Assembly (NCBI RefSeq): GCF_003313325.1 | Contig: NZ_QMHQ01000001.1 | Coordinates: forward strand, 868,001 to 932,000 | Origin: Pedobacter namyangjuensis | Lineage (GTDB): Bacteria; Bacteroidota; Bacteroidia; Sphingobacteriales; Sphingobacteriaceae | Length of the DNA stretch: 64,000 bases | Reading direction: 5' to 3' | In this document: one piece after another, positions 1,537-51,917 of the stretch | How positions within the stretch are numbered: position 1 is the stretch's first letter | Layout: each line of letters begins with the position of its first letter | Notes under the pieces: model-generated | What the model saw: the letters and a program-made list of their open reading frames with translations, nothing else | What the model was told of the DNA's origin: nothing | Database searches by the model: none | Made by a program: the position numbers and the translations under genes

Positions 1537-2826
1537 ATGAAAAAAAATCTATTTAGTATTTTAACCTTATTTTCCTTGGCGCTTATCCTTTCTTGTAAAA
1601 GCGGACCGTTTAACATGCTTAAAAGTGGGTCGCCACATCAGCAGTATGAGCGAAAACTGCAAAATGCAGGCTTAGATAAAACGGTTATGGGTGCAACATG
1701 GATTAGCAATGCACAGGCTAGCCTAACAAAAGCGGTAGCTATTAATTTACCTTATCAGGAAAAAGGTTATTTCGCTGCCGATAAAATTGATGCAATTGCT
1801 TTCCGCTTTAATTTAACACGTGGACAAAAAATTCAAATTCAACTGGATAGAAAACCAGTGGAAAAATTTATGATTTACGCCGATTTGTGGGAGTTGAATG
1901 AACAGCAGGAATTTAAATTACTCACTTCTGCAGATACATTGGGCAAAAGTATTGAGTTAGACGCAAACAAAACAGGAACCTACGTACTCAGGTTGCAGCC
2001 AGAGTTATTGGGTAGTGGCGAATATACTTTAGCCATCACAACCGGTCCTTCATTAGGTTATCCGCTTAAAGCTGTAAATAAAAATCAGATACAAAGTTTA
2101 TTTGGAGTAGGAAGGGATGCCGGGGCAAGAAAACATGAAGGTGTAGATATTTTCTCATCGTTTCGCACACCGGTATTGGCGGTTGCGAACGGAAGAGTTA
2201 CGAGAGTTAATACCAATAATTTGGGAGGCAAGGTAGTTTGGTTTAGACCAAACGATAAGGATTACACATTGTATTATGCGCATTTAGATGAACAATTAGT
2301 TACCGATGGACAAACAGTTTTTCAAGGCGATACTTTAGGTTTAATGGGCAATACGGGTAATGCACAAACTACACCACCACATTTACATTTAGGCCTTTAT
2401 ACAAACGGCGGTGCAATAGATCCTTTACCGTTTATTGATCCAACAGTACAAAAGGCGCCACCTGTAACTAGTTCTGTGAGCCAATTAAATGCAACACTGA
2501 GAACTACTTCAAAAGTAGAATTAGATGGAGTATCGCTAAAAAGCGGTAATGTTATTCGCGTTAACGCAGCAAGTAAAAATAATTATCGTGTAGAATTGCC
2601 CGATGGAAGTTTGGGATATATTCCTGCTAATAAACTCGTGTTGGCCAATAAACCTTTAACCACCTATAAAACAAAAATACAAAGCCAAATTTACGATAAG
2701 CCTGATTCACTTGCGTCTGTAAAGGTCTCTGCCCCATCGGGAGAATTTTTAGACGTGTTGGGAAGTTTCAAGAATTATCAGCTCGTTAAGTACAAAAACC
2801 AAGTTGGTTGGGTTTTAAACGATTGA
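1537..2826 (+). CDS. M23 family metallopeptidase, lipoprotein
   Basis: A 429-residue secreted lipoprotein. The N-terminus MKKNLFSILTLFSLALI is followed by the lipobox LSCKSG, so it is anchored in a membrane by Cys-20. The LytM/M23 zinc-peptidase signatures are intact: the first His/Asp pair in KHEGVDIF, then YYAHLDEQL, then HLHLGLY (HxH). The C-terminal part (after about residue 315) looks like SH3-type beta repeats that would bind peptidoglycan. The domain ahead of the peptidase resembles a beta-sandwich pre-peptidase module. Expected role: endopeptidase trimming of peptidoglycan cross-links in the periplasm. Its neighbours are housekeeping-like and it is separated by 373 bases from the EPS operon. 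Confidence 0.92.
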   Translation: MKKNLFSILTLFSLALILSCKSGPFNMLKSGSPHQQYERKLQNAGLDKTVMGATWISNAQASLTKAVAINLPYQEKGYFAADKIDAIAFRFNLTRGQKIQIQLDRKPVEKFMIYADLWELNEQQEFKLLTSADTLGKSIELDANKTGTYVLRLQPELLGSGEYTLAITTGPSLGYPLKAVNKNQIQSLFGVGRDAGARKHEGVDIFSSFRTPVLAVANGRVTRVNTNNLGGKVVWFRPNDKDYTLYYAHLDEQLVTDGQTVFQGDTLGLMGNTGNAQTTPPHLHLGLYTNGGAIDPLPFIDPTVQKAPPVTSSVSQLNATLRTTSKVELDGVSLKSGNVIRVNAASKNNYRVELPDGSLGYIPANKLVLANKPLTTYKTKIQSQIYDKPDSLASVKVSAPSGEFLDVLGSFKNYQLVKYKNQVGWVLND

Positions 2827-3100
2827 TATATAGAAGCTGATCTTAAAAGGTTCATGTTTTCCAAAAACCAGCTGTGTTTATTTTAAGTGCATCAAATTAA
2901 CATTTGTGTCTTTGAGTTTGAAATATTACGGTCTCTAAAATGCTTTTTTCGTCAGCACTTTTTTATTTGCCTTTGGCTAATTCTAAATAAATCTATCGAT
3001 TATCATAGATATGTTTCTTTTTAAGAAAATTAAAACGTTTTAGGAATAGGCTTAAATTAATCGTCTGTTTTACAGTTATTTATGATTGCTATTTTTTATG

Positions 3101-3148
3101 ATAGCCCTATTGGGCTATTGTCTAAAAACCGCTTAAGCTTCATCTTTG
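3101..3148 (+). promoter_or_regulatory. Palindrome-containing promoter of EPS operon 1
   Basis: The perfect inverted repeat ATAGCCC-TATT-GGGCTAT (3101-3118) overlaps GGGCTATTG (3112-3120). Exactly 20 nt later comes CATCTTTG (3141-3148), which matches the Bacteroidota -7 consensus TAnnTTTG at six of the six fixed positions except the first T. The start codon at 3200 is 51 nt downstream. The same layout recurs before four other EPS transcription units. The remaining bases of the 2827-3199 gap are AT-rich and hold nothing else I can name. Regulator unknown. Confidence 0.7.
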
Positions 3149-3199
3149 GTATGTAATTAAGGTTAGGAGAAATAATTTTAATACATAATCCCTAAAAAC

Positions 3200-3595
3200 A
3201 TGAAGACTAAAAACAGCACAGAAAAATTTTTCAAAAAAAGTATTTTGATAGTTGATGGTGGATCACACCTATCTAAGCTTTATAGCTACATTTTGTCCTC
3301 AGATTATTCATTAACCATTAAGAAAAATGGTATAGATGCGCTTGCTTGGTTGGAGGAGGGAAATGATCCTGATTTAATTATTACAAGTTTAAGAATGCCT
3401 TATCTTGATGGTTGTGCATTTATTCAAAATCTTAAATTAAGTGGTTTTTATCGCAATACACCTGTTATGTTGCTCTCTGGCGATGAAAATTTAGCCGAAA
3501 GGGTTGAACAAATGGCCTACAAGGTTGATAGCTACCTTGAAAAACCATTTGATCCAACTGTATTAAAAATGCAAATAACAAAGTTAATCGCCTAA
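3200..3595 (+). CDS. Stand-alone receiver-domain protein lacking the phospho-acceptor Asp
   Basis: The 131 residues cover one CheY-like receiver domain and no output domain. The fold signature is clear (ILIVDGG, PDLIITSLRMPYLDG, VMLLSGD, YLEKPF). The residue aligned with the phosphorylated Asp is Ser-63 (ITSLRMP instead of the usual ILDLRMP), and the N-terminal acidic pair is reduced to Asp-19 followed by Gly. The conserved Ser-93 and Lys-115 remain. It therefore cannot be phosphorylated at the usual site and is best called a pseudo-receiver. Its stop codon shares one base with the next start (TAATG), so it is translationally coupled to the receiver-sugar transferase fusion and may bind it. 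It heads the first EPS operon. Confidence 0.85.
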   Translation: MKTKNSTEKFFKKSILIVDGGSHLSKLYSYILSSDYSLTIKKNGIDALAWLEEGNDPDLIITSLRMPYLDGCAFIQNLKLSGFYRNTPVMLLSGDENLAERVEQMAYKVDSYLEKPFDPTVLKMQITKLIA

Positions 3596-4674
3596 TGATC
3601 CCATCTTCTACATTTCAAAGTCCTGTTGTTACGTCTAAAGTTGTTTACTTCGGAAAATTGCTGAGCAAAGTTTTAATCAGCGAGCTTGAAGCAAATATCA
3701 GTGGATTGGAATGTCCGGAGGATTTTGACGAATACATTAACCATCAAACGTTGCTAAGTTTACCAGACGTAATTATTATTGAGGTAGATGAAAACGATGA
3801 GTGTTTTAATCAGGTACAAGCCTTAAGAGCTAATCCAGTACTTGAATCTATAATTGTGATATTGATTGGTATTAAAGAAAGTAAACAATTAAGAAAAAAA
3901 GCACTGGCTCTAAAGGTTAACGATTATTATACTTATCCTTTTCCGATAGAAGATTTCTATGCACGTATTAATTTTCTGGTTAAGTTCAAATTGATTAAAC
4001 CACAACTTTCAGAAAAATCTACTTATAAATCTACCGAAAAATACGAGATTCCATTAGTAAAAAGAACTTTCGATATTATCGCCTCTGGCATGGCGTTATT
4101 GGTTTTATCGCCGATTTTGTTACTGGTAGCCTTGATGATTAGGCTAGGTTCAAAAGGCGATATTATATACACTAGCAAAAGAGTGGGTGCAGGCTACCGC
4201 ATTTTCAACTTTTATAAGTTTAGGTCTATGCGTACCGATGCTGATAAAATGATTGTAGAAATGGCAAGCTTAAACCAATACGCTAGCGAGCAAAATGGAA
4301 ATGCAAAATCGGCTTTCGTTAAATTTAAAAACGATCCTCGAATAACAAAAATTGGTGCTTTTTTAAGAAAGACCAGTTTAGATGAGCTACCTCAATTGAT
4401 AAATGTTTTTATAGGGGATATGTCTTTAGTAGGCAATAGACCATTGCCACTTTACGAAGCAGAGCGTTTGACCACTAACAAATGGTCTGAGCGTTTTAAT
4501 GGGCCAGCTGGTTTAACAGGGCTTTGGCAAATTTCAAAACGCGGTCAAAAAGATATGTCCGAGGTTGAACGTAAGGAGTTAGACAACTACTACGCTTCGA
4601 ATTATTCGTTACTTCTAGATCTAAAAATTATCCTTAAAACTTTTCCGGCGCTCATTCAAAAAGAAGCTGTTTAA
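3595..4674 (+). CDS. Pseudo-receiver fused to initiating sugar-1-phosphate transferase
   Basis: A 359-residue fusion. Residues about 13-134 read as a receiver fold (LPDVIIIEVD at the beta-3 strand, YYTYPFP near the end). The phospho-acceptor position is Glu-63 and the conserved Lys is Tyr-114, so the domain is degenerate. After a short linker, residues 154-359 form a bacterial sugar transferase (polyprenyl-phosphate hexose-1-phosphate transferase): one membrane segment (IIASGMALLVLSPILLLVALMI), [34 protein letters not shown] and GLTGLWQ. It should load the first sugar onto undecaprenyl phosphate at the cytoplasmic face. The usual five-helix N-terminal region of WcaJ is absent; the receiver replaces it. 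Coupled to the pseudo-receiver gene upstream. Confidence 0.9.
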   Translation: MIPSSTFQSPVVTSKVVYFGKLLSKVLISELEANISGLECPEDFDEYINHQTLLSLPDVIIIEVDENDECFNQVQALRANPVLESIIVILIGIKESKQLRKKALALKVNDYYTYPFPIEDFYARINFLVKFKLIKPQLSEKSTYKSTEKYEIPLVKRTFDIIASGMALLVLSPILLLVALMIRLGSKGDIIYTSKRVGAGYRIFNFYKFRSMRTDADKMIVEMASLNQYASEQNGNAKSAFVKFKNDPRITKIGAFLRKTSLDELPQLINVFIGDMSLVGNRPLPLYEAERLTTNKWSERFNGPAGLTGLWQISKRGQKDMSEVERKELDNYYASNYSLLLDLKIILKTFPALIQKEAV

Positions 4675-4690
4675 CTAAATATACATTACT

Positions 4691-5368
4691 ATGAAAATCA
4701 GAAATTTGGCCTTAACATTCTTAATGTTCTTTGCCATAAATGCTAGTGCGCAAGAGTCTCTTCTAACTAATGTAGATAATAAGTTGCTGCAAAAATATAT
4801 TGATATGGCTATTCAGTATTATCCGCGAAAAAAGGTTTTCAATGCATACGAAACCAAAGCTAAAAGTGATGTTGCCACTACCAAAATGTCGGTATTTGAT
4901 TTCCTTAATGCTGCATACATTTATCGCCCAGATAATAAATCGGTTGTGGATGCACTTAATCCTTACAATGTTAATGGGTTTCAGTTTGGTTTAAACGTTA
5001 GTTTGGGAGCATTACTTTCAAGGCCATCGGCAATAAAATCGGCAAATGAAACCTACAAGGCTGCAAAAGCGCAAAATGACGATTATCTAATAGCACTAAA
5101 ATCAGAGGTGCGTACTAAATATTACGACTTTCTTCTTAGAAAATCTAATTTATCACTAAGAAACCAATCTTCTCAAGAATTAAGAGTTGCCTTAACAGAT
5201 GCTAAACTAAAATATGAGCGATCGCAGATCCAGGTTGATGTGTATACTGCTGCAAAAAATATGTCTGTTGAAGCAGATGAATTATTACTGGGCGCTGAAG
5301 CTAGTTACCTTATGGCTAAAAATGCGCTAGAGGATTTGATTGGCAGTAAACTGGAAGACGTAAAGTAG
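4691..5368 (+). CDS. Half-size TolC-like outer membrane/periplasmic protein
   Basis: 225 residues with a cleavable signal peptide (MKIRNLALTFLMFFAINASAQ). The mature part is rich in long Ala/Lys/Gln helices with heptad character and contains a beta-strand-like stretch (NGFQFGLNVSLGALLSRPSA) of the kind that crosses the outer membrane in TolC. TolC-family proteins carry two such repeats in about 420-480 residues; only one repeat is present here and the reading frame is clean, so this is a short form and not an obvious frameshift. It sits between the initiating transferase and the Wzz-like protein in EPS operon 1, which has no Wza gene. It could be part of the export channel or a periplasmic scaffold. 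Family call is moderate. Confidence 0.65.
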   Translation: MKIRNLALTFLMFFAINASAQESLLTNVDNKLLQKYIDMAIQYYPRKKVFNAYETKAKSDVATTKMSVFDFLNAAYIYRPDNKSVVDALNPYNVNGFQFGLNVSLGALLSRPSAIKSANETYKAAKAQNDDYLIALKSEVRTKYYDFLLRKSNLSLRNQSSQELRVALTDAKLKYERSQIQVDVYTAAKNMSVEADELLLGAEASYLMAKNALEDLIGSKLEDVK

Positions 5369-5384
5369 ATTAAAAATTTTATAG

Positions 5385-7574
5385 ATGAATATTAACTTTA
5401 ATTTAAAAGACTTCTTAAAATATTTACAAGGTTATAAGTGGGTGATAATAATTGTACCAACAATCTGTTTAGCATTTACCTATTTTTTTGTAAAAACGCT
5501 TCCTAAAACTTACAAGTCTGAAGCTTTGATTTCAACCGGCGTAACTCAACAGTTTCAACAAGCGGTTGTTGCAAACGGTCAGTCTATGGATAATTTTAAG
5601 CTTAACCAGCAATTCGGCAATATTTTAGAAATAATGCGTTCTAAAAGATTGTTAAATGGCTTGTCGTACAAACTAATAATCCACGATCTTAAGAATGAAG
5701 CAGTTGCATTTAAATCTTATGGACCGCTGGTTCAAAAAATGTCGAAAGTTGAAAGGCAAGAAGCAATAAATGCTTATACATCAATGCTCATAAATGGCGC
5801 TGCAATTTCAATATCAGATAATGAAGGAAAACTAAAATTGTATGATATTTTAAACGAGTCTGGGTACGATGCGCAATCTATATTAAAAAACCTTTTAATG
5901 TATAGGAATGGCGAAAGTGATTTTATTAAGGTAGAATATTCTTCCAATAATTCGGCTCTGTCGGCATATGTGGTAAACAACCTATCAAATGATTTTATAG
6001 ATTATTACCTTGATTTAGGCCTTTCTAGTCAGCGAAAATCAATAGCTTTTTTAGATACTTTGGTTAAGGAAAAACAGGCAGAATTAACGAATAAGAACCA
6101 AGAATTATCTAGCTCATCTGTAAAAGTTGCGGAAGCTATGGTAAGTCAGAAAGCACTAGAAATAAATCAACAAAGACTGATAGACATACAGACACAAAGA
6201 GCGCAGATATTAAGAAGCATAAGTGCTATTGAAGGAAGTATAACTGAAGTGAATAGAAAGTTAAGCGGTGCTGGTGGTTATATAAGGCAAGATAATGGTG
6301 GGGAAAATGCAATGATTATTAATCTAGACGACCAGATAGCTGCTGCTAACCAACAATATTCTAATAGCAACTTTAAACGTGAATTTAAAAACAAGATTGA
6401 CTCGTTACAAAAAATAAAGTTGCGCTACATTACCAGTAACAGCGGAAGTACAAACTCGACCGTACTTAAGCAAGAACTAATTAATCAAAAAATTAAATTA
6501 GAAACCGACCTTGCATCGGCAAAAAGCAGTCTTTCTACAACAGAAAGGCAATTAAACGCCATCAGTATGCAGTCGGGTAGTGGAGATGGGCTATTAAGCG
6601 TCCGTACTAATAATCAGGAAGTAATGCTAAAAAAGGCAGATTTAGCTTCGAAAGAATATAATGATGCGCAGGCATTGTACGAACAAAATAGCATTTATGC
6701 TAAAACAATGCCCCGAATGACATTGGCAGAACCCGGTTTGCAAGGTCCGGCTGAGCCCTCAAAAAACATGTTGTATTTGGGCTTCTCAGGAATATCTGGT
6801 TTACTAACTGTATTGCTTGCGTTGTTTATTAGTTTTATTCTACATCCAAAAATTAGTACAGCTGCACAGTTGCAAAATGTTACTAAACAGCGTATTCTTG
6901 GCTCTCTAAACATGATAGCCGATAAAAATAAAGATCTGCGAGATATTTGGAAGAATACTGATGATATTAAAGATTACACTACATATAAGGATTTATTAAG
7001 ATCGTTGAGATTTGAGCTTTGCGAAGAACTTATGGGTGACAATAAGGTGTTGGGAATTACAAGTTTATCCAAGTCTGAAGGAAAAACCTTTTTAGCCAAT
7101 AGTTTAGCCTATGCAATGGCAATGATGGGCAAGAATGTTTTGTTGATTTGCGATAATGAATCAGATCTTTTAAGTGTTTTAACTAATAAAAGTACTGCTC
7201 AAAAACAAAAATTTGACAACGAGCAAAAGTTTGAGTCGTTCTTGGTAAGAAAAGAAATCCAGATTGAGGATAAAATTACCATTTTAAAAACCAACCCGGC
7301 AAATAACTCTTTACTAGAAGTAATGGATGGAAAAAGTTTGCTAGCTGGTTTCGGCATACTAAAAGAGACATTCGACCTAATTGTTATCGATATCGATAGC
7401 TCTCATGATATGTTTAAAGTAAAAGAATGGCTAATGTTCTGCGATAAATTTATATCTGTTTTCGAAGCAGGAAATAACATCAAATCTGAGGACTTATCTT
7501 TTATAGAGTATTTAGCAAAACAAAAAAATTACTTGGGTTGGGTGTTAAACAAAACGAAGTTAGCCGAAGCATAA
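5385..7574 (+). CDS. Wzz/GumC-type polysaccharide co-polymerase with degenerate kinase domain
   Basis: 729 residues. One membrane helix lies near residues 18-36, followed by a Wzz-like periplasmic domain with long coiled coil (about 40-450), a Pro-rich motif (EPGLQGPAEPSKN), a second membrane helix (about 462-482) and a cytoplasmic P-loop domain. The Walker A-like stretch SLSKSEGKT (near residue 560) keeps GKT, but Walker A' (LLICDNE) lacks the usual DxD pattern, Walker B (IVIDIDSS) lacks the following PP, and there is no C-terminal tyrosine cluster. This suggests loss or reduction of tyrosine-kinase activity with retention of a structural, chain-length-controlling role at the inner membrane. 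Contrast with the canonical Wzc at 34462. Co-transcribed with the TolC-like gene (16-nt gap). Confidence 0.85.
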   Translation: MNINFNLKDFLKYLQGYKWVIIIVPTICLAFTYFFVKTLPKTYKSEALISTGVTQQFQQAVVANGQSMDNFKLNQQFGNILEIMRSKRLLNGLSYKLIIHDLKNEAVAFKSYGPLVQKMSKVERQEAINAYTSMLINGAAISISDNEGKLKLYDILNESGYDAQSILKNLLMYRNGESDFIKVEYSSNNSALSAYVVNNLSNDFIDYYLDLGLSSQRKSIAFLDTLVKEKQAELTNKNQELSSSSVKVAEAMVSQKALEINQQRLIDIQTQRAQILRSISAIEGSITEVNRKLSGAGGYIRQDNGGENAMIINLDDQIAAANQQYSNSNFKREFKNKIDSLQKIKLRYITSNSGSTNSTVLKQELINQKIKLETDLASAKSSLSTTERQLNAISMQSGSGDGLLSVRTNNQEVMLKKADLASKEYNDAQALYEQNSIYAKTMPRMTLAEPGLQGPAEPSKNMLYLGFSGISGLLTVLLALFISFILHPKISTAAQLQNVTKQRILGSLNMIADKNKDLRDIWKNTDDIKDYTTYKDLLRSLRFELCEELMGDNKVLGITSLSKSEGKTFLANSLAYAMAMMGKNVLLICDNESDLLSVLTNKSTAQKQKFDNEQKFESFLVRKEIQIEDKITILKTNPANNSLLEVMDGKSLLAGFGILKETFDLIVIDIDSSHDMFKVKEWLMFCDKFISVFEAGNNIKSEDLSFIEYLAKQKNYLGWVLNKTKLAEA

Positions 7575-7615
7575 CTTTTTAACAGTATTATTTTTCCATA
7601 ACCTATAAATACAGT

Positions 7616-9055
7616 ATGCCACGCTACCAAGAAGCAATAAAACTTAATAAAAGGAACACGCTCCTGATAATTGCTTCGTTGTTTGCATTTGTGTTTTCGT
7701 ATTTCTCTTTAGCCCAAGCCAATTATGCATATACTTTTTTTCCGGTAGTTATTCTAGGTGCGGTTGCAGTATTGATATTAATTTTTAGAGAACCATTTAA
7801 CGGACTAATAATTACAATTGCCTATTGTTTTTTGATGGGGATTCTAGACCGGGAGATCGGCGGATTACCCTACGGAATGGGCATCGAAGTTTTCTTGCTA
7901 TTAACCTGGTTGAGCGTATGGTACCATGCGGATAAGTTTGATTTTAAGGTGCTAAACAACGATCTAATCTGGCTAACTGTGGCATGGTTTGTTATAAGTG
8001 TTTTAGAACTGTTTAATTTAGCGGGCGCTAGCCCTAGAGGCTGGCTACAGGAAATTAGGAGTACAGCATTGTATCCTATGCTAATTACCCCGTTGGGTGT
8101 ATTATTAATTAACACCAATAAACGCCTAAATATTTTCATTATACTTATTTTTAGTTTGTCTTTTTTAGCCACGCTTAATGGAATTAAACAAGCTAAAATC
8201 GGTCCCACAAGCGGAGAACAAGCATTTTTAGATAATGGAGGTTATGTTACCCATGTAATTTTTGGCCATTTACGAATATTTTCTTTTTTTAGTGATGCTA
8301 GTCAATTTGGCCCTTCTCAAGCGCACATAGCATTAATGGCTATAGTATTAGCATTGTCGTTAAGATTAAGCTGGGGCAAAAGAATTTTGCTACTGATTTT
8401 AGGTTTATTATCCTTTTACGGTATGCTTATTTCTGGTACAAGAGGTGCACTGTTTGTAATTGCTTTCGGTGTAATTATGGTAATTGCTTTAAGCAAACGT
8501 CTAAAAATCTTAATCTGGGGTTCCAGTATTGCTTTGTTCTTCTTCTGCATACTAAAACTCACCTACATAGGTAACTCAAATTACGATATCTATAGGTTGA
8601 GAACTTCAATCAATCCTGAGGATGCCTCTTTCAATGTAAGGCTAATTAACCAAAATAAAATTGCAGAGTATATGCAGGGTAAACCATTTGGTGGTGGATT
8701 GGGTGTAATTGGCCATTGGGGCCGAGAATATAATAAAGATAAATATCTATCAACAATTGCTCCAGATAGCTATTGGGTTAAAGTTTGGGCAATGTATGGT
8801 ATTGTAGGCTTCGTTATATTTTTCTGCATCTGGCTATATTGGTTTGGCAAATGTTCTGGCCTTTTATGGAACCTAAAAGAACGGCAAATTAGAACCAAGT
8901 TAATTGCACTTTTAGCTGGTGTGGCAGGTATTTTTGTATGTAGTTACGGTAACGAGGTAATGAATGCAATGCCGTCTTTAATTGTAATACATCTTTCGTT
9001 AGGTGCAGTGTACGCTTTTAGCAGAATTTATAAAGAAAAATTAACAGATAAATAA
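7616..9055 (+). CDS. O-antigen ligase/Wzy-like polymerase, polytopic membrane protein
   Basis: 479 residues with about eleven to twelve hydrophobic segments and a large periplasmic loop before the last helices. Hallmarks of the WaaL/Wzy superfamily are present: FFSDASQFGPSQAHIALM, LISGTRGALFV and, late in the loop, KPFGGGLGVIGHWG with TIAPDSYWVKVWAMYG. Members join lipid-linked repeat units (polymerase) or transfer them to an acceptor (ligase) in the periplasm; sequence alone does not separate the two. In this operon, next to a co-polymerase, polymerisation is the likelier role. A second member of the superfamily is at 39288. Confidence 0.85.
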   Translation: MPRYQEAIKLNKRNTLLIIASLFAFVFSYFSLAQANYAYTFFPVVILGAVAVLILIFREPFNGLIITIAYCFLMGILDREIGGLPYGMGIEVFLLLTWLSVWYHADKFDFKVLNNDLIWLTVAWFVISVLELFNLAGASPRGWLQEIRSTALYPMLITPLGVLLINTNKRLNIFIILIFSLSFLATLNGIKQAKIGPTSGEQAFLDNGGYVTHVIFGHLRIFSFFSDASQFGPSQAHIALMAIVLALSLRLSWGKRILLLILGLLSFYGMLISGTRGALFVIAFGVIMVIALSKRLKILIWGSSIALFFFCILKLTYIGNSNYDIYRLRTSINPEDASFNVRLINQNKIAEYMQGKPFGGGLGVIGHWGREYNKDKYLSTIAPDSYWVKVWAMYGIVGFVIFFCIWLYWFGKCSGLLWNLKERQIRTKLIALLAGVAGIFVCSYGNEVMNAMPSLIVIHLSLGAVYAFSRIYKEKLTDK

Positions 9056-9062
9056 TACCGAT

Positions 9063-9164
9063 ATGCCGTTTATATATTTTATCATTCCAGGTTTACTTTG
9101 CTTAATATGGGGTATATACAGAGGCTTAAAGGAAATGCGAGGCGATAAAAATAAGTTGAACTAA
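9063..9164 (+). CDS. 33-residue single-pass membrane miniprotein
   Basis: ATG at 9063 to TAA at 9162-9164. The peptide starts MPFIYFIIPGLLCLIWG and ends YRGLKEMRGDKNKLN: one hydrophobic helix then a basic, charged tail, typical of a membrane miniprotein with cytoplasmic C-terminus. It sits 7 bases after the Wzy-like gene and 13 bases before the acetyltransferase, so it fills the only gap in the operon. It has no known family that I can name. It may assist a membrane protein of the assembly complex. Real translation is inferred from position and composition only. Confidence 0.5.
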   Translation: MPFIYFIIPGLLCLIWGIYRGLKEMRGDKNKLN

Positions 9165-9177
9165 ACTAATTGCCAAA

Positions 9178-9816
9178 ATGGGTTTAAAGGAAAAAATCAA
9201 GGCTAATAATAAGCTTAAACAATTTAGTTTATGGCTTTTAATGCCTCCTAACGATGCTAGGCCAAGGTGGTGGATTAGAAATATAATAAACCCGTTTACG
9301 GTTACAAAGGGTAAACAAGTTATAATTAGGAATAGGGCTAGACTAGATATTTTGCCCTTTAACAAGTTTGTTTTAGGCGATAAGGCAATTGTAGAAGATT
9401 TTTCGGTTATTAATAACGGAGTTGGAGATGTTAACATTGGTGATAGAACGATTATTGGACTAAGCAGTGTTGTTATAGGTCCAGTAAATATTGGCAACGA
9501 TGTAATGTTGGCACAACATGTAGTAATTTCTGGTTTAAACCATGGGTACGAGGATACGAGTATACCACCAAGCCAGCAAGCCACTTCAAAAAAAACTGTA
9601 AATATTATGGATAATGTTTGGATAGGGGCAAATGCAGTAATCACCGCGGGTGTTACTATTAACAAGCATTGCATAGTTGGAGCCGGAAGTGTAGTTACAA
9701 AGGATGTTCCAGCGTATTGTGTTGTAGTTGGCAACCCCGCAAAGGTCATTAAACAGTATAACGAGATGTCCAATACTTGGGAAAAAGTAAACAGTAAAAA
9801 CGAAACGAATCAATAG
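9178..9816 (+). CDS. Left-handed beta-helix (hexapeptide) O-acetyltransferase
   Basis: 212 residues with several imperfect hexapeptide turns (for example VNIGDRTIIG, VNIGNDVMLA, VNIMDNVWIG, ANAVITAGVTI) ending in KDVPAYCVVVGNPAKVI, the standard C-terminal coil signature of WcaF/WcaB/NodL-like acetyltransferases. His in HVVISGLNHGYED is the likely catalytic or ligand residue. Expected function: acetyl-CoA dependent O-acetylation of a sugar in the repeat unit, in the cytoplasm. Because of the repeats the antisense frame is open for 215 codons; that ORF is rejected. It precedes a GT2 gene by 2 bases. Confidence 0.88.
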   Translation: MGLKEKIKANNKLKQFSLWLLMPPNDARPRWWIRNIINPFTVTKGKQVIIRNRARLDILPFNKFVLGDKAIVEDFSVINNGVGDVNIGDRTIIGLSSVVIGPVNIGNDVMLAQHVVISGLNHGYEDTSIPPSQQATSKKTVNIMDNVWIGANAVITAGVTINKHCIVGAGSVVTKDVPAYCVVVGNPAKVIKQYNEMSNTWEKVNSKNETNQ

Positions 9817-9818
9817 CT

Positions 9819-10976
9819 ATGTCAATGTTAATCTGGGCGATAGTTCAAATCTTATTTAGTTCATTTCTCTGGTTTCCGGTGGTGTTGCTGGTAACATCTT
9901 TTTTAAAAAAAAAACGAAAGCCTTTAGCGTTAAATAACAAAGAGTTTGATTTTGCCATAATCGTTACCGCTTACCAACAAATAGATTTGTTAAAAGATGC
10001 TGTTTATTCGATTTTAAATACCAAATATTCAAATTTCATCATATACGTTGTGGCAGATAACTGCGATGTTTCAGGATTGAACTTTGCTAATCCGAAAGTA
10101 ATTGTCTTACAACCAGAAAATATTTTGGCTAGTAATGTTAAATCTCATATTTATGCCATAGATAGATTTGAAAGAAATCATGATATTATATCCATTGTAG
10201 ACAGCGATAATTTAGTAGATGAAAATTACCTTTCGGCCTTAAATGAAAAGTTCCATGAAAATTTTTCTGCTGTGCAAGGAGTAAGGGCGGCAAGAAATCT
10301 AAATACGTTTTTGGCATGTTTAGATGAAGCTGGCGATATGTTCTATAGATTTATCGACAGAAAATTACTTTCAGAGAGTGGCTCTTCCGCATCGCTTGCA
10401 GGTTCGGGTATGGCATTTAAAAGCGATTTGTACATACAGGCTTTAAAGCAAATTGAAACTAATGGCGCCGGTTTTGACAAAGCTTTACAATATAATTTAG
10501 TAGCCAGCAAAGAAAAAATTGAGTTTTGCGAAGCAGCAATTGTATACGATGCAAAAACTACAAAGGCAGATCAATTGGTAAAACAACGATCTCGATGGAT
10601 TAATACTTGGTTTAAATATTGGAAACTTGGCGCAATTCTATTTTTCAAGTCGCTATTAAATTTCAACTGGAATCAGTTTGCGTTTTCGGTAATGCTTTTA
10701 AGACCGCCACTATTTCTTTTGGGCTTAATTTCCATACTTATGATAGCGATAAATCTTTTCTTTTCGCCAATTCTGTTACTAATTTGGGCGGTATCATTTT
10801 CTTGTTTTTTTATAATGTTTTATCGCTCTCTATTATATTTCAAAGCAGATAATGCAATTTACGAGTCCTTATGGAGCGCTCCGAAATTTATTTTTTATCA
10901 AATTATTTCCCTATTTAAAGCTCGTTCGGCAAATAAAATTTCGGTTGCCACTAAACACGATGTCTCAAATCTCTAA
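9819..10976 (+). CDS. Membrane-associated family 2 glycosyltransferase
   Basis: 385 residues. An N-terminal membrane helix (about 5-28) is followed by a GT-A domain: FAIIVTAYQQIDLLKDAVYSIL, then ISIVDSDNLVDENYL (DxD-type metal/nucleotide site) and KQRSRWINTWFKYW, equivalent to the QxxRW motif of processive or membrane GT2 enzymes. Two or three C-terminal hydrophobic segments (about 285-345) complete the topology. It should transfer a sugar from a nucleotide donor to the lipid-linked acceptor at the inner membrane. The donor is not predictable. Tightly packed in operon 1. Confidence 0.88.
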   Translation: MSMLIWAIVQILFSSFLWFPVVLLVTSFLKKKRKPLALNNKEFDFAIIVTAYQQIDLLKDAVYSILNTKYSNFIIYVVADNCDVSGLNFANPKVIVLQPENILASNVKSHIYAIDRFERNHDIISIVDSDNLVDENYLSALNEKFHENFSAVQGVRAARNLNTFLACLDEAGDMFYRFIDRKLLSESGSSASLAGSGMAFKSDLYIQALKQIETNGAGFDKALQYNLVASKEKIEFCEAAIVYDAKTTKADQLVKQRSRWINTWFKYWKLGAILFFKSLLNFNWNQFAFSVMLLRPPLFLLGLISILMIAINLFFSPILLLIWAVSFSCFFIMFYRSLLYFKADNAIYESLWSAPKFIFYQIISLFKARSANKISVATKHDVSNL

Positions 10977-47009: not shown

Positions 47010-47783
47010 TTATTTAAAGGCTGTAAACACCAACGCAGCTATGGACAATGCAGAGAGTAAAATTGTGGTAGTTTGGTATCCACGACTTACTTGAGCATAC
47101 TTTACTTTTCCTGGTTGCACAACAATTACATCATTATTTTTGAGATAGTAATTTGGAGAACTAAACAGAGCTTCTGAAGTAAGATCTATCGAAATAAATT
47201 TTCTTTCTCCATTTATCTCCCTTACCAGTAATACATTTTTTCTTAAAGCAGTTATATTTAAATCTCCAGCTAGCCCTAATGCTTCCGTAACGGTTATTCT
47301 CTCATTGGTTACAGGGTAAATGCCAGGCTTAGCAACATCACCTAACACGGAAATTTTAAAGTTCATTATGCGAACTGTTACTGATGGTTGTTTCATGGAC
47401 GGTCCAATTTTTTCAAGAATTTTGGCTTGAACCTCTGACGTGGTTAGGCCAGCAACTTTCATAGTTCCTACGGTAGGGAATTGTATATTTCCGTTTTGAT
47501 CAACCAAATATCCAATAATAGGATTAGTTGCACTCACATCTAGATTATTTCCATTGATTCGATTTAAATTACTGTTGAAAATTGCAGCAGCTTCTGGATT
47601 TAGGTTCACTACATTTACACCAAGAATATCTTGAGGTTGAATTGTAATCGGAGTAAAATTTGCTATTTTTTCAGTAGTATTTGTTTTTACATTTTGAAAG
47701 TATGGCACATCTTTATATGCAGTGCAAGAAATGCAAATTGTAGTAGCAATTAAAATAACTAAGCTGTTTATTAATTTTTTCAT
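47010..47783 (-). CDS. Wza-type polysaccharide export lipoprotein
   Basis: 257 residues. Signal peptide with lipobox (TTICISCTAYK), a Poly_export domain (ITIQPQDILGVNVVNLNPEA, GYLVDQNGNIQFPTVGTMKVAGLTTSEVQAKI spread over it) and an SLBB domain (ISVLGDVAKPGIYPV). The C-terminal hydrophobic helix (TTILLSALSIAALVFTAF) is typical of the Bacteroidota form. It forms the outer-membrane/periplasmic export channel. It is the only such gene in the window although there are two EPS assembly sets. Its promoter carries the shared palindrome. Confidence 0.9.
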   Translation of the reverse strand: MKKLINSLVILIATTICISCTAYKDVPYFQNVKTNTTEKIANFTPITIQPQDILGVNVVNLNPEAAAIFNSNLNRINGNNLDVSATNPIIGYLVDQNGNIQFPTVGTMKVAGLTTSEVQAKILEKIGPSMKQPSVTVRIMNFKISVLGDVAKPGIYPVTNERITVTEALGLAGDLNITALRKNVLLVREINGERKFISIDLTSEALFSSPNYYLKNNDVIVVQPGKVKYAQVSRGYQTTTILLSALSIAALVFTAFK

Positions 47784-50504: not shown

Positions 50505-51917
50505 TTAATAAGCGTTATCTTCTCCCTTTAACGCATTGGTTACTGTTTTAAGTATAATTTCAACATCCTTACTTAAACTCCAGTTTTCCATATACCAAAC
50601 GTCGTGCTCAACTCTATCTAGCATTTGCTGGTGTATCTTGGTTTCCCCTCTATGTCCGTTAATTTGTGCCCATCCAGTAATGCCTGGCTTTAAATAATGG
50701 CGAACCATGTACTGGCTAATTATTTTTCGGTATTCTTCTGTGTGTTTTAACATATGAGGTCGCGGACCCACAACACTCATATTACCCATTAGCACATTAA
50801 AAAACTGTGGTAGTTCATCTAAGCTAGTTTTACGCATAAACGAGCCGATTTTGGTAATTCTCGGGTCGTTTTTCGTAGCCTGTTGTTTGTTGCTGTCTGC
50901 ATTTAGCCTCATGCTTCTAAGCTTGAAGCATAAAAAAGACTTGTTGTTTCTACCTGATCTCGCTTGTGTAAAAATTGGAGCGCCTTTGGATTCGATCATA
51001 ATCGCAATCATCAAAATTGGCAACAGCCATGATAATAGAAAAACGATTACACATAGGCTAAAGACAATATCAAAACTTCGCTTTATTAAGCGGTTCCAGA
51101 CTAAATCTAAAGGTTCATTTCTAGCTACTAAAATCGGTATCCCGTCATAAAATCTCGATAGTTTGTAATTTTCGGTTGCGAAGGTTGCTTCCTGGTTCTG
51201 AAACTCTAAGAAAGACGTTACAAACTTAACCCTTACGCAGTTTTGCTCGGCCAAAGCAATTAGGTTATCCAGTCCTGTATGGTTTTCAGGAAACAAGGAG
51301 GTATAAACCTCGTCCAAATTGTTTTCGATGGCAAAATGTATGGTAGATTCTAAATCTTCTAAACTATCACTTTGGGTTTTAGTATCTGTCTTTATGTCTG
51401 GGTAAGTTCCAGTAAATTCATACGAAAGCTGGTTTTGCATAAAGTACTTCTCCAGCCTAAGGTTAATGTCATTACCGCCAACTATTGCAATTCTTTTTCT
51501 AATCAAGTCGGCATTTAGGTAATAATTTTTGGTAAAGTAAATTCCGGCTCTCACCAACGCTAAAAATAGTATTTGAAGTAGAATGGCTATTACAATATAG
51601 TGTTGCAACAAATCGAATGCAGAAAAAGCAAGTGATAATACGGTAAAAGCGGTCAGTTGCAGGGCAATTGTTTGTAAACTCTTTAACCAAATGCTTCTGT
51701 TTTGCTGTAGGCTTTGATAGCTGTACAGTTTTGTTAGCAATGCAGCCAAAATCCAAGATAGATTTAACTTTATTAAATAGGCTATGCTAACTGAGATGTT
51801 TAACTCGTCATGTTTTATAATATCAAAAAAATAGAGAACTGCATACGATGAGTTGATGGCGATTGCATCAAATACCGCTAACAGGGCTATTAAGATAAAT
51901 ACATAACGATTTTGCAT
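50505..51917 (-). CDS. wcaJ: Undecaprenyl-phosphate glucose phosphotransferase, WcaJ type
   Basis: 470 residues, full length for the family. Four or five N-terminal membrane helices and a CoA-binding-like domain ([17 protein letters not shown]) precede the last helix ([19 protein letters not shown]) and the catalytic part: [43 protein letters not shown] and [17 protein letters not shown]. It transfers a hexose-1-phosphate (usually glucose) from UDP-sugar to undecaprenyl phosphate and starts repeat-unit synthesis. This is the second initiating enzyme in the window, besides the receiver fusion at 3595. It has its own motif-bearing promoter and three terminator-like hairpins downstream. Confidence 0.92.

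Follow-up and report, generated by a model that had tools for sequence, protein, structure and literature searches.

How might the committed step of an exopolysaccharide pathway come to be gated by a pair of receivers, neither of which carries the Asp on which receivers are phosphorylated? The question is raised by two genes in the window studied here, a stretch of 64,000 nucleotides from Pedobacter namyangjuensis, which encode a lone single-domain receiver and a receiver-like domain fused to a predicted initiating sugar-phosphate transferase (PGT) (Table 1). A preliminary description, made from the sequence alone, had reported two open reading frames overlapping by one base, with Ser-63 in the lone receiver and Glu-63 and Tyr-114 in the fused domain; the codons read from the sequence agree in every particular, and the base common to the stop of the first gene and the start of the second lies in the TAATG at 3593-3597. 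The Asp that marks a phosphorylatable response regulator is absent from both window domains, as had been claimed.

Table 1. Features of the receiver/PGT locus and its downstream neighbours, in window coordinates.
Feature	Position	Strand	Basis
Lone single-domain receiver, 131 aa, aspartate-less (D19 G20 / S63 / S93 / Y112 / K115)	3200..3595	+	PF00072, AlphaFold, Foldseek
Ser-63 codon, phospho-Asp site of lone receiver	3386..3388	+	sequence
Receiver-PGT fusion, 359 aa, predicted initiating sugar-phosphate transferase	3595..4674	+	ORF, Pfam, model, Foldseek
Fused pseudo-receiver, about aa 13-134, with Glu-63 and Tyr-114	3631..3996	+	AlphaFold, Foldseek, PDB profile search, hhalign
Glu-63 codon of fused receiver	3781..3783	+	Glu in 102/103 family rows, gap in one
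Tyr-114 codon of fused receiver (Lys site)	3934-3936	+	sequence
Bac_transf (small monotopic PGT) catalytic domain, aa 156-354	4060..4656	+	PF02397 E 3.8e-60; PglC Foldseek match
Half-length outer-membrane efflux-type (OEP, TolC-type) protein, 225 aa	4691..5368	+	PF02321 E 2e-12
Wzz chain-length/tyrosine-autokinase-like protein	5385..7574	+	profile matches
Wzy/O-antigen-ligase-like polymerase, same cluster	7616..9055	+	PF04932

The order of the pair followed by OEP, Wzz/tyrosine-kinase-like and Wzy-like genes is also found in P. nutrimenti (L036) and Mucilaginibacter conchicola (L039); at locus L045 an OEP gene holds the same downstream position and is the sole downstream neighbour recognised. 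In a genome tagged as the same genus (L006), the lone/fusion pair is protein-identical to that of P. quisquiliarum (L037). The Poly_export (Wza-type) matches of the window's genome sit away from the OEP gene, one at about 47367-47651 on the minus strand of the window and two outside it. The genome's only other Bac_transf match (window 50529-51083, minus strand) belongs to a large, WcaJ-size PGT in a 485-aa frame, and the 666 bp examined upstream of that gene hold no receiver.

The lone protein belongs to the receiver (REC) superfamily, with its (beta-alpha)5 fold. Pfam recognises it as a receiver (E 9.1e-16, 58.5 bits against a cut-off of 30.2), AlphaFold models it as a (beta-alpha)5 CheY-like receiver (pLDDT 85.6, pTM 0.82), and Foldseek matches that model to RR468 and PhoB. 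For the fused domain, the window protein gives no Pfam receiver match even at E up to 1, and a sub-threshold match appears in the orthologue L005 (E 6.5e-4). The AlphaFold model of the fusion, from 37 rows, gives residues 11-130 a pLDDT of about 86-93 and arranges strands and helices in receiver order, with beta2 seen as isolated bridge residues only and beta3 ending at Glu-63; the whole 359-residue model has a pTM of 0.50 and a mean pLDDT of 75. In Foldseek this N-terminal part falls on the receivers of PhoB and RR468 (target TM about 0.78), and a profile of 55 fused domains finds PleD (7e-12) and the PhoB mutant D10A/D53E (1.7e-7) in the PDB. The fused and lone-receiver families are also aligned by hhalign over 75 columns (residues 55 to about 130; probability 95.7, E 9e-9), and since that alignment pairs Ser-63 with Glu-63 and Lys-115 with Tyr-114, the residue assignments in the preliminary description are correct.

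The fused N-terminal domain is thus, by its fold, a receiver, and the structure predictions that had been suggested for each domain place both the lone protein and residues 13-134 of the fusion in that class. A chance likeness is ruled out by the model, Foldseek, hhalign and PDB profile matches, and is further opposed because Glu-63 is nearly invariant in a domain whose mean column identity is 34%. Both window domains fit the aspartate-less receivers (ALRs), in which the REC fold is kept and the phospho-Asp replaced. The fused receiver in addition has no acidic residue just after beta1 (strand ends being taken from the AlphaFold model) and, because it combines this with Glu at the phospho-site, it is similar to mutants such as PhoB D10A/D53E, described in the title of PDB entry 2jb9 as constitutively active.

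The remainder of the fusion is a small monotopic PGT of the PglC type, with a Bac_transf fold and no N-terminal transmembrane bundle. Foldseek matches it to PglC (8g1n; 32% identity, target TM 0.56), and the residues that we take to be the Asp-Glu catalytic dyad, D263-E264, are invariant across 37 rows of the fusion. The predicted activity would be transfer of a sugar-1-phosphate to undecaprenyl phosphate. The protein is not a large monotopic PGT of the WbaP/WcaJ/EpsZ kind, which have a four-helix transmembrane bundle and a cytoplasmic DUF: the full-length models of these enzymes score below their cut-offs (WcaJ 205.6 against 410.75 bits, WbaP 221.1 against 403, EpsZ 166.7 against 800) and match only about residues 151-357. 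The fused receiver stands in the N-terminal place that the membrane bundle occupies in large PGTs.

Does the fusion come with its lone partner elsewhere? In a family set of 103 places (the window and 102 picked relatives), a lone receiver lies within 150 bp upstream of the fusion in 100, with gaps from -104 to +69 bp and overlapping genes in 75 of the 100 pairs. Among the exceptions, L047 is a truncated copy within an inverted duplication, and L113 is a late-starting frame whose lone receiver ends 326 bp upstream. At L016 (also L227), a Glu-63 fusion, no lone receiver was detected in the 3.4 kb examined upstream; this orphan could show what the fusion does without its partner. A curiosity is L226 (G101:C1:2125500-2138500), where the receiver/PGT locus of one family genome is duplicated in inverted orientation, the two arms (about 2589-5793 and 6745-9941) being nearly identical and about 3.2 kb long each; this may be a real duplication or an assembly artefact. 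The second PGT copy is split into shorter frames, and no ORF was found for its lone receiver.

Whether receivers and PGTs simply occur together was answered by a control set of 29 PGT loci out of 51 listed rows (28 fetched plus L001, with the window's own L002 excluded), for which 570-1494 bp of upstream DNA were covered; several of the unexamined rows have fusion-sized frames. An upstream receiver was found at 0 of the 27 control loci without a fused domain and at both of the two with one, so that plain co-occurrence is rejected. The lone receiver and the fusion are a conserved module, and within the family fused and lone receivers go together, which bears out the earlier suggestion of a receiver pair and shows it to be a dedicated one.

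Beyond the family, the search across the phylum needed a full-length fusion profile, a profile of the fused domain alone being too weak there: its matches are weak, and many fall in kinase-sized or short regulator-sized frames. The full-length profile matched in 57 of 395 phylum genomes at E up to 1e-60, catalytic-only PGTs included. A distant set was formed from 41 of these loci outside the family rows, two of which are a second subtype in the window's own genus. Among the 29 distant PGTs longer than 330 aa, all but L161 are preceded by a lone receiver at 400 bp or less (28 of 29), and the fused-receiver profile matches the N-terminal extension in 16, at E up to 1e-3 and with weak scores; these 16 span six other families as well as the window's genus, and the extensions of the other 13 give no match to that profile at E up to 1e-3. 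The 12 distant PGTs of 330 aa or less include four with a lone receiver and no fused domain (L184, L187, L190, L191) and eight with neither. The joint occurrence of fused and lone receivers is in this way shown for part of the distant set only.

Two further observations belong here. The second receiver-PGT fusion subtype in the window's genus (L166, L181, L216) is 399-404 aa long and has its own lone receiver, and the two subtypes occur together in one genome, G013 (L009 and L181). L187, L190 and L191 each have, ending some 420-480 bp upstream, an additional 316-376-aa ORF that weakly resembles a receiver; this is possibly an unlinked form of the module.

The preliminary description had proposed a phosphorylation-independent receiver pair, and had suggested examining whether Ser and Glu are fixed among orthologues. 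The two receivers give different answers. At position 63 of the fused domain Glu is present in 102 of 103 family rows, with a gap in the remaining one, and at position 114 Lys occurs in none of the 103. The fused domain of L045, a locus from a metagenome-assembled genome labelled Acetofilamentum, has Asp and Lys aligned with these two sites; in other distant fusions the phospho-site residue varies and is not clearly Glu. From these alignments the fused receiver looks like a once canonical receiver that has since degenerated, with Glu fixed in the family, the direction of change being our inference; because the site in distant fusions is not clearly Glu, a ‘locked-on’ reading of the fused receiver is not general.

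The lone receiver keeps Asp at site 63 in 86 of 100 family rows, with Ser in 10 and Glu in four; the 32 distant rows have 29 Asp, two Glu and one other residue, and Lys in all 32. The preliminary description had itself named Asp in orthologues as grounds for refutation, and for the lone receiver those grounds are present. Because of the 86 Asp-keeping pairs, the ancestral system was most likely phosphorylation-controlled. Phosphorylation independence thus holds for the clade of the window and fails as a general description: a fully phosphorylation-independent pair appears confined to one Pedobacter subclade and four Glu-type rows. In a careful tree of 43 chosen lone receivers (nine Ser, four Glu, 30 Asp; active-site columns left out), Ser and Glu rows are all nested among Asp rows, Ser arises once (bootstrap/SH-aLRT 95/87; 94% of 200 bootstrap trees) and Glu twice, the latter count resting partly on L078 and L098, which are flagged as long branches. 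A quick tree of 116 rows also needs three changes and agrees for Ser, with starred branches that leave a single Glu origin possible. On these trees the lone-receiver Asp appears to have been lost three times in the family, once to Ser and twice to Glu. All four Glu-type lone receivers (L078, L088, L089, L098) have also lost acidic residue 2, having Ser or Thr at position 20. The loss of acidic-2 with Asp to Glu, which is the combination engineered in PhoB D10A/D53E, is therefore found in nature in these four rows; that mutant, unlike them, is an engineered DNA-binding regulator.

How, then, could such a module work? In Myxococcus xanthus the initiating PGT EpsZ is bound and activated by the receiver EpsW in its phosphorylated form (EpsW~P), as supported by proximity labelling and heterologous expression (PMC12802240; mBio, November 2025). 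By analogy, we propose a two-gene gate in which the lone receiver would dock on the fusion, likeliest on or near the fused receiver, and set the activity of the PGT, with the Ser clade locked; we think this reading somewhat more likely than not. The gate's point of action would be the committed step in making exopolysaccharide. The lone receiver would in most species be phosphorylated by a histidine kinase, which would alter both docking and PGT activity after the manner of EpsW and EpsZ, and the fused receiver, with Glu-63 and no acidic residue after beta1, may be a permanently ‘on’ docking platform or a dimerisation unit. For the Pedobacter subclade of the window we envisage a phosphate input that was replaced or locked, either hard-wired or given over to another input; a phosphate-free locked state would make the lone receiver a constitutive activating subunit. 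Column co-variation between lone receiver and fusion leans to the fused receiver over the PGT among the top 100 pairs (65 against 39 expected), but singles out no stable interface after entropy binning and in subsets, and we rest no part of the proposal on it.

A wider proposal, which we hold tentatively and would put at somewhat under an even chance, is that this two-receiver switch is present in many Bacteroidota families, and that phosphate was removed and the gate hard-wired in three lineages of the window's family. Hard-wiring would have come about twice through Glu-63 with Ser or Thr at position 20, and once through Ser-63 with Gly or Asn at position 20 and a lock formed by Arg-65 and an acidic residue at 95.

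The pocket of the Ser clade (10 rows, of which L010 and L011 are nearly identical) bears on whether its lone receiver is locked or is still switched by another input, such as phosphorylation of Ser-63 in the manner of Ser/Thr kinases, or a small ligand held by the pocket. All 10 rows have Ser-63, Arg-65, Asp-19, Ser-93, Tyr-112 and Lys-115; residue 20 is Gly in nine and Asn in one, and residue 95 is Glu in eight and Asp in two. Among Asp rows an acidic residue at 95 occurs in 1 of 92 and Arg at 65 in 0 of 86. Positions 65 and 95 correspond to D+2 and T+2, which tune receivers of the CheY type. This clade has lost both the phospho-Asp and acidic residue 2 and has rebuilt the pocket around Gly/Asn-20, Arg-65 and acidic 95; the earliest branch, L009 (Asn-20, Ser-63, Arg-65, Asp-95, Gly-114), may show the order of these changes. 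The clade also has its own columns at the C-terminus of the PGT (296, 302, 315 and 324; eight of 10 rows each). A switch by another input would suit the uniformity of Ser-63, with no mixture of residues, and the retention of the switch residues Ser-93 and Tyr-112 throughout, and Ser/Thr phosphorylation of aspartate-less receivers is floated as speculation in PMC4395418. Arg-65 and acidic 95, however, look more like partners in an internal salt bridge than the lining of an open site, and we regard such an input as unlikely.

A second alternative is that the fused receiver is merely an architectural or dimerisation unit, the lone receiver acting elsewhere and being co-transcribed for dosage. That the two domains are separable is indicated by the short distant PGTs that have a lone receiver without a fused one and by the L016 fusion without a lone receiver. 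Such independence sits poorly with a lone receiver kept by nearly all fusions of the family and by 28 of the 29 longer distant PGTs and absent from all 27 control PGTs, and also with the EpsW/EpsZ precedent; we give this alternative a small chance, comparable to that of another input.

Selection on the lone gene of the Ser clade speaks to a last possibility. By the NG86 method on chosen pairs, its dN/dS is about 0.03-0.10 in the four of eight pairs with a defined dS, and 0-0.05 among Asp relatives in the six of nine such pairs; these values point to purifying selection somewhat less strict than in the Asp relatives, and some relaxation is compatible with them. The Asp rows have 37 columns with conservation of at least 90%, and in 31 of these the identical residue is found in at least 90% of the Ser clade. 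That the Ser-type receiver is a decaying remnant after loss of kinase input, as its missing phospho-Asp and acidic residue 2 and its slightly raised dN/dS might suggest, is very improbable given an intact ORF in 10 rows, these dN/dS values and kept columns, and a uniform pocket with new residues at 65 and 95 and an invariant Lys-115.

Returning to the proposed gate, how new is it? The preliminary description knew of no characterised fusion of this kind. We likewise found no description of the Bacteroidota lone-receiver/receiver-PGT pair in the literature searched, most subscription papers being outside its reach, and PMC12550135 yielded no receiver terms. The claim does not hold for the wider idea: a receiver-activated PGT (EpsW/EpsZ) is published, and receiver domains in small monoPGTs were seen in a 2021 network survey (O'Toole et al., PNAS), known to us only through the Discussion of PMC12802240, which appear to be the same kind of domain fusion.

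Among aspartate-less receivers (ChxR, RitR and FrzS being examples), the phospho-Asp is often replaced by Glu (26%) or Ser (15%), the acidic-1, Lys and Y/T-coupling residues tend to be kept, and receivers can become constitutive through a change of Asp to Glu, in many cases together with another substitution, according to PMC4395418. The Ser clade is like them in its receiver fold, its lack of a phospho-Asp and its retention of the acidic-1, Lys and Y/T-coupling residues. Unlike them, it has two such domains in neighbouring genes, one of them on a predicted glycan-initiation enzyme.

The closest likeness is to EpsW/EpsZ. In both, the gene for a single-domain receiver accompanies that for the initiating monotopic PGT in an exopolysaccharide pathway, and action of the receiver on the PGT would be the shared principle. 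Unlike EpsZ, which is of the large type and has a membrane helix bundle and cytoplasmic DUF, the window PGT is small and has a fused pseudo-receiver; unlike EpsW, which is phosphorylated on Asp, the lone receiver of the window clade is without the phospho-Asp that most family pairs keep; and the window genes, unlike those of EpsW and EpsZ, overlap. The precedent may not transfer directly, because EpsZ is a large enzyme believed to work as a dimer, and small PGTs are reported to be monomeric (PMC12802240). What was known is a single-domain receiver acting on an initiating PGT, shown, as far as we found, in late 2025 in one myxobacterial system; what this locus adds is a small PGT with a built-in pseudo-receiver. 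It indicates that operons of this Bacteroidota family, and of others, may have such control as a dedicated feature, and in a different enzyme class. The Asp-, Glu- and Ser-type partners found in close relatives provide a natural series in which to ask how a phospho-switch becomes a constitutive allosteric subunit.
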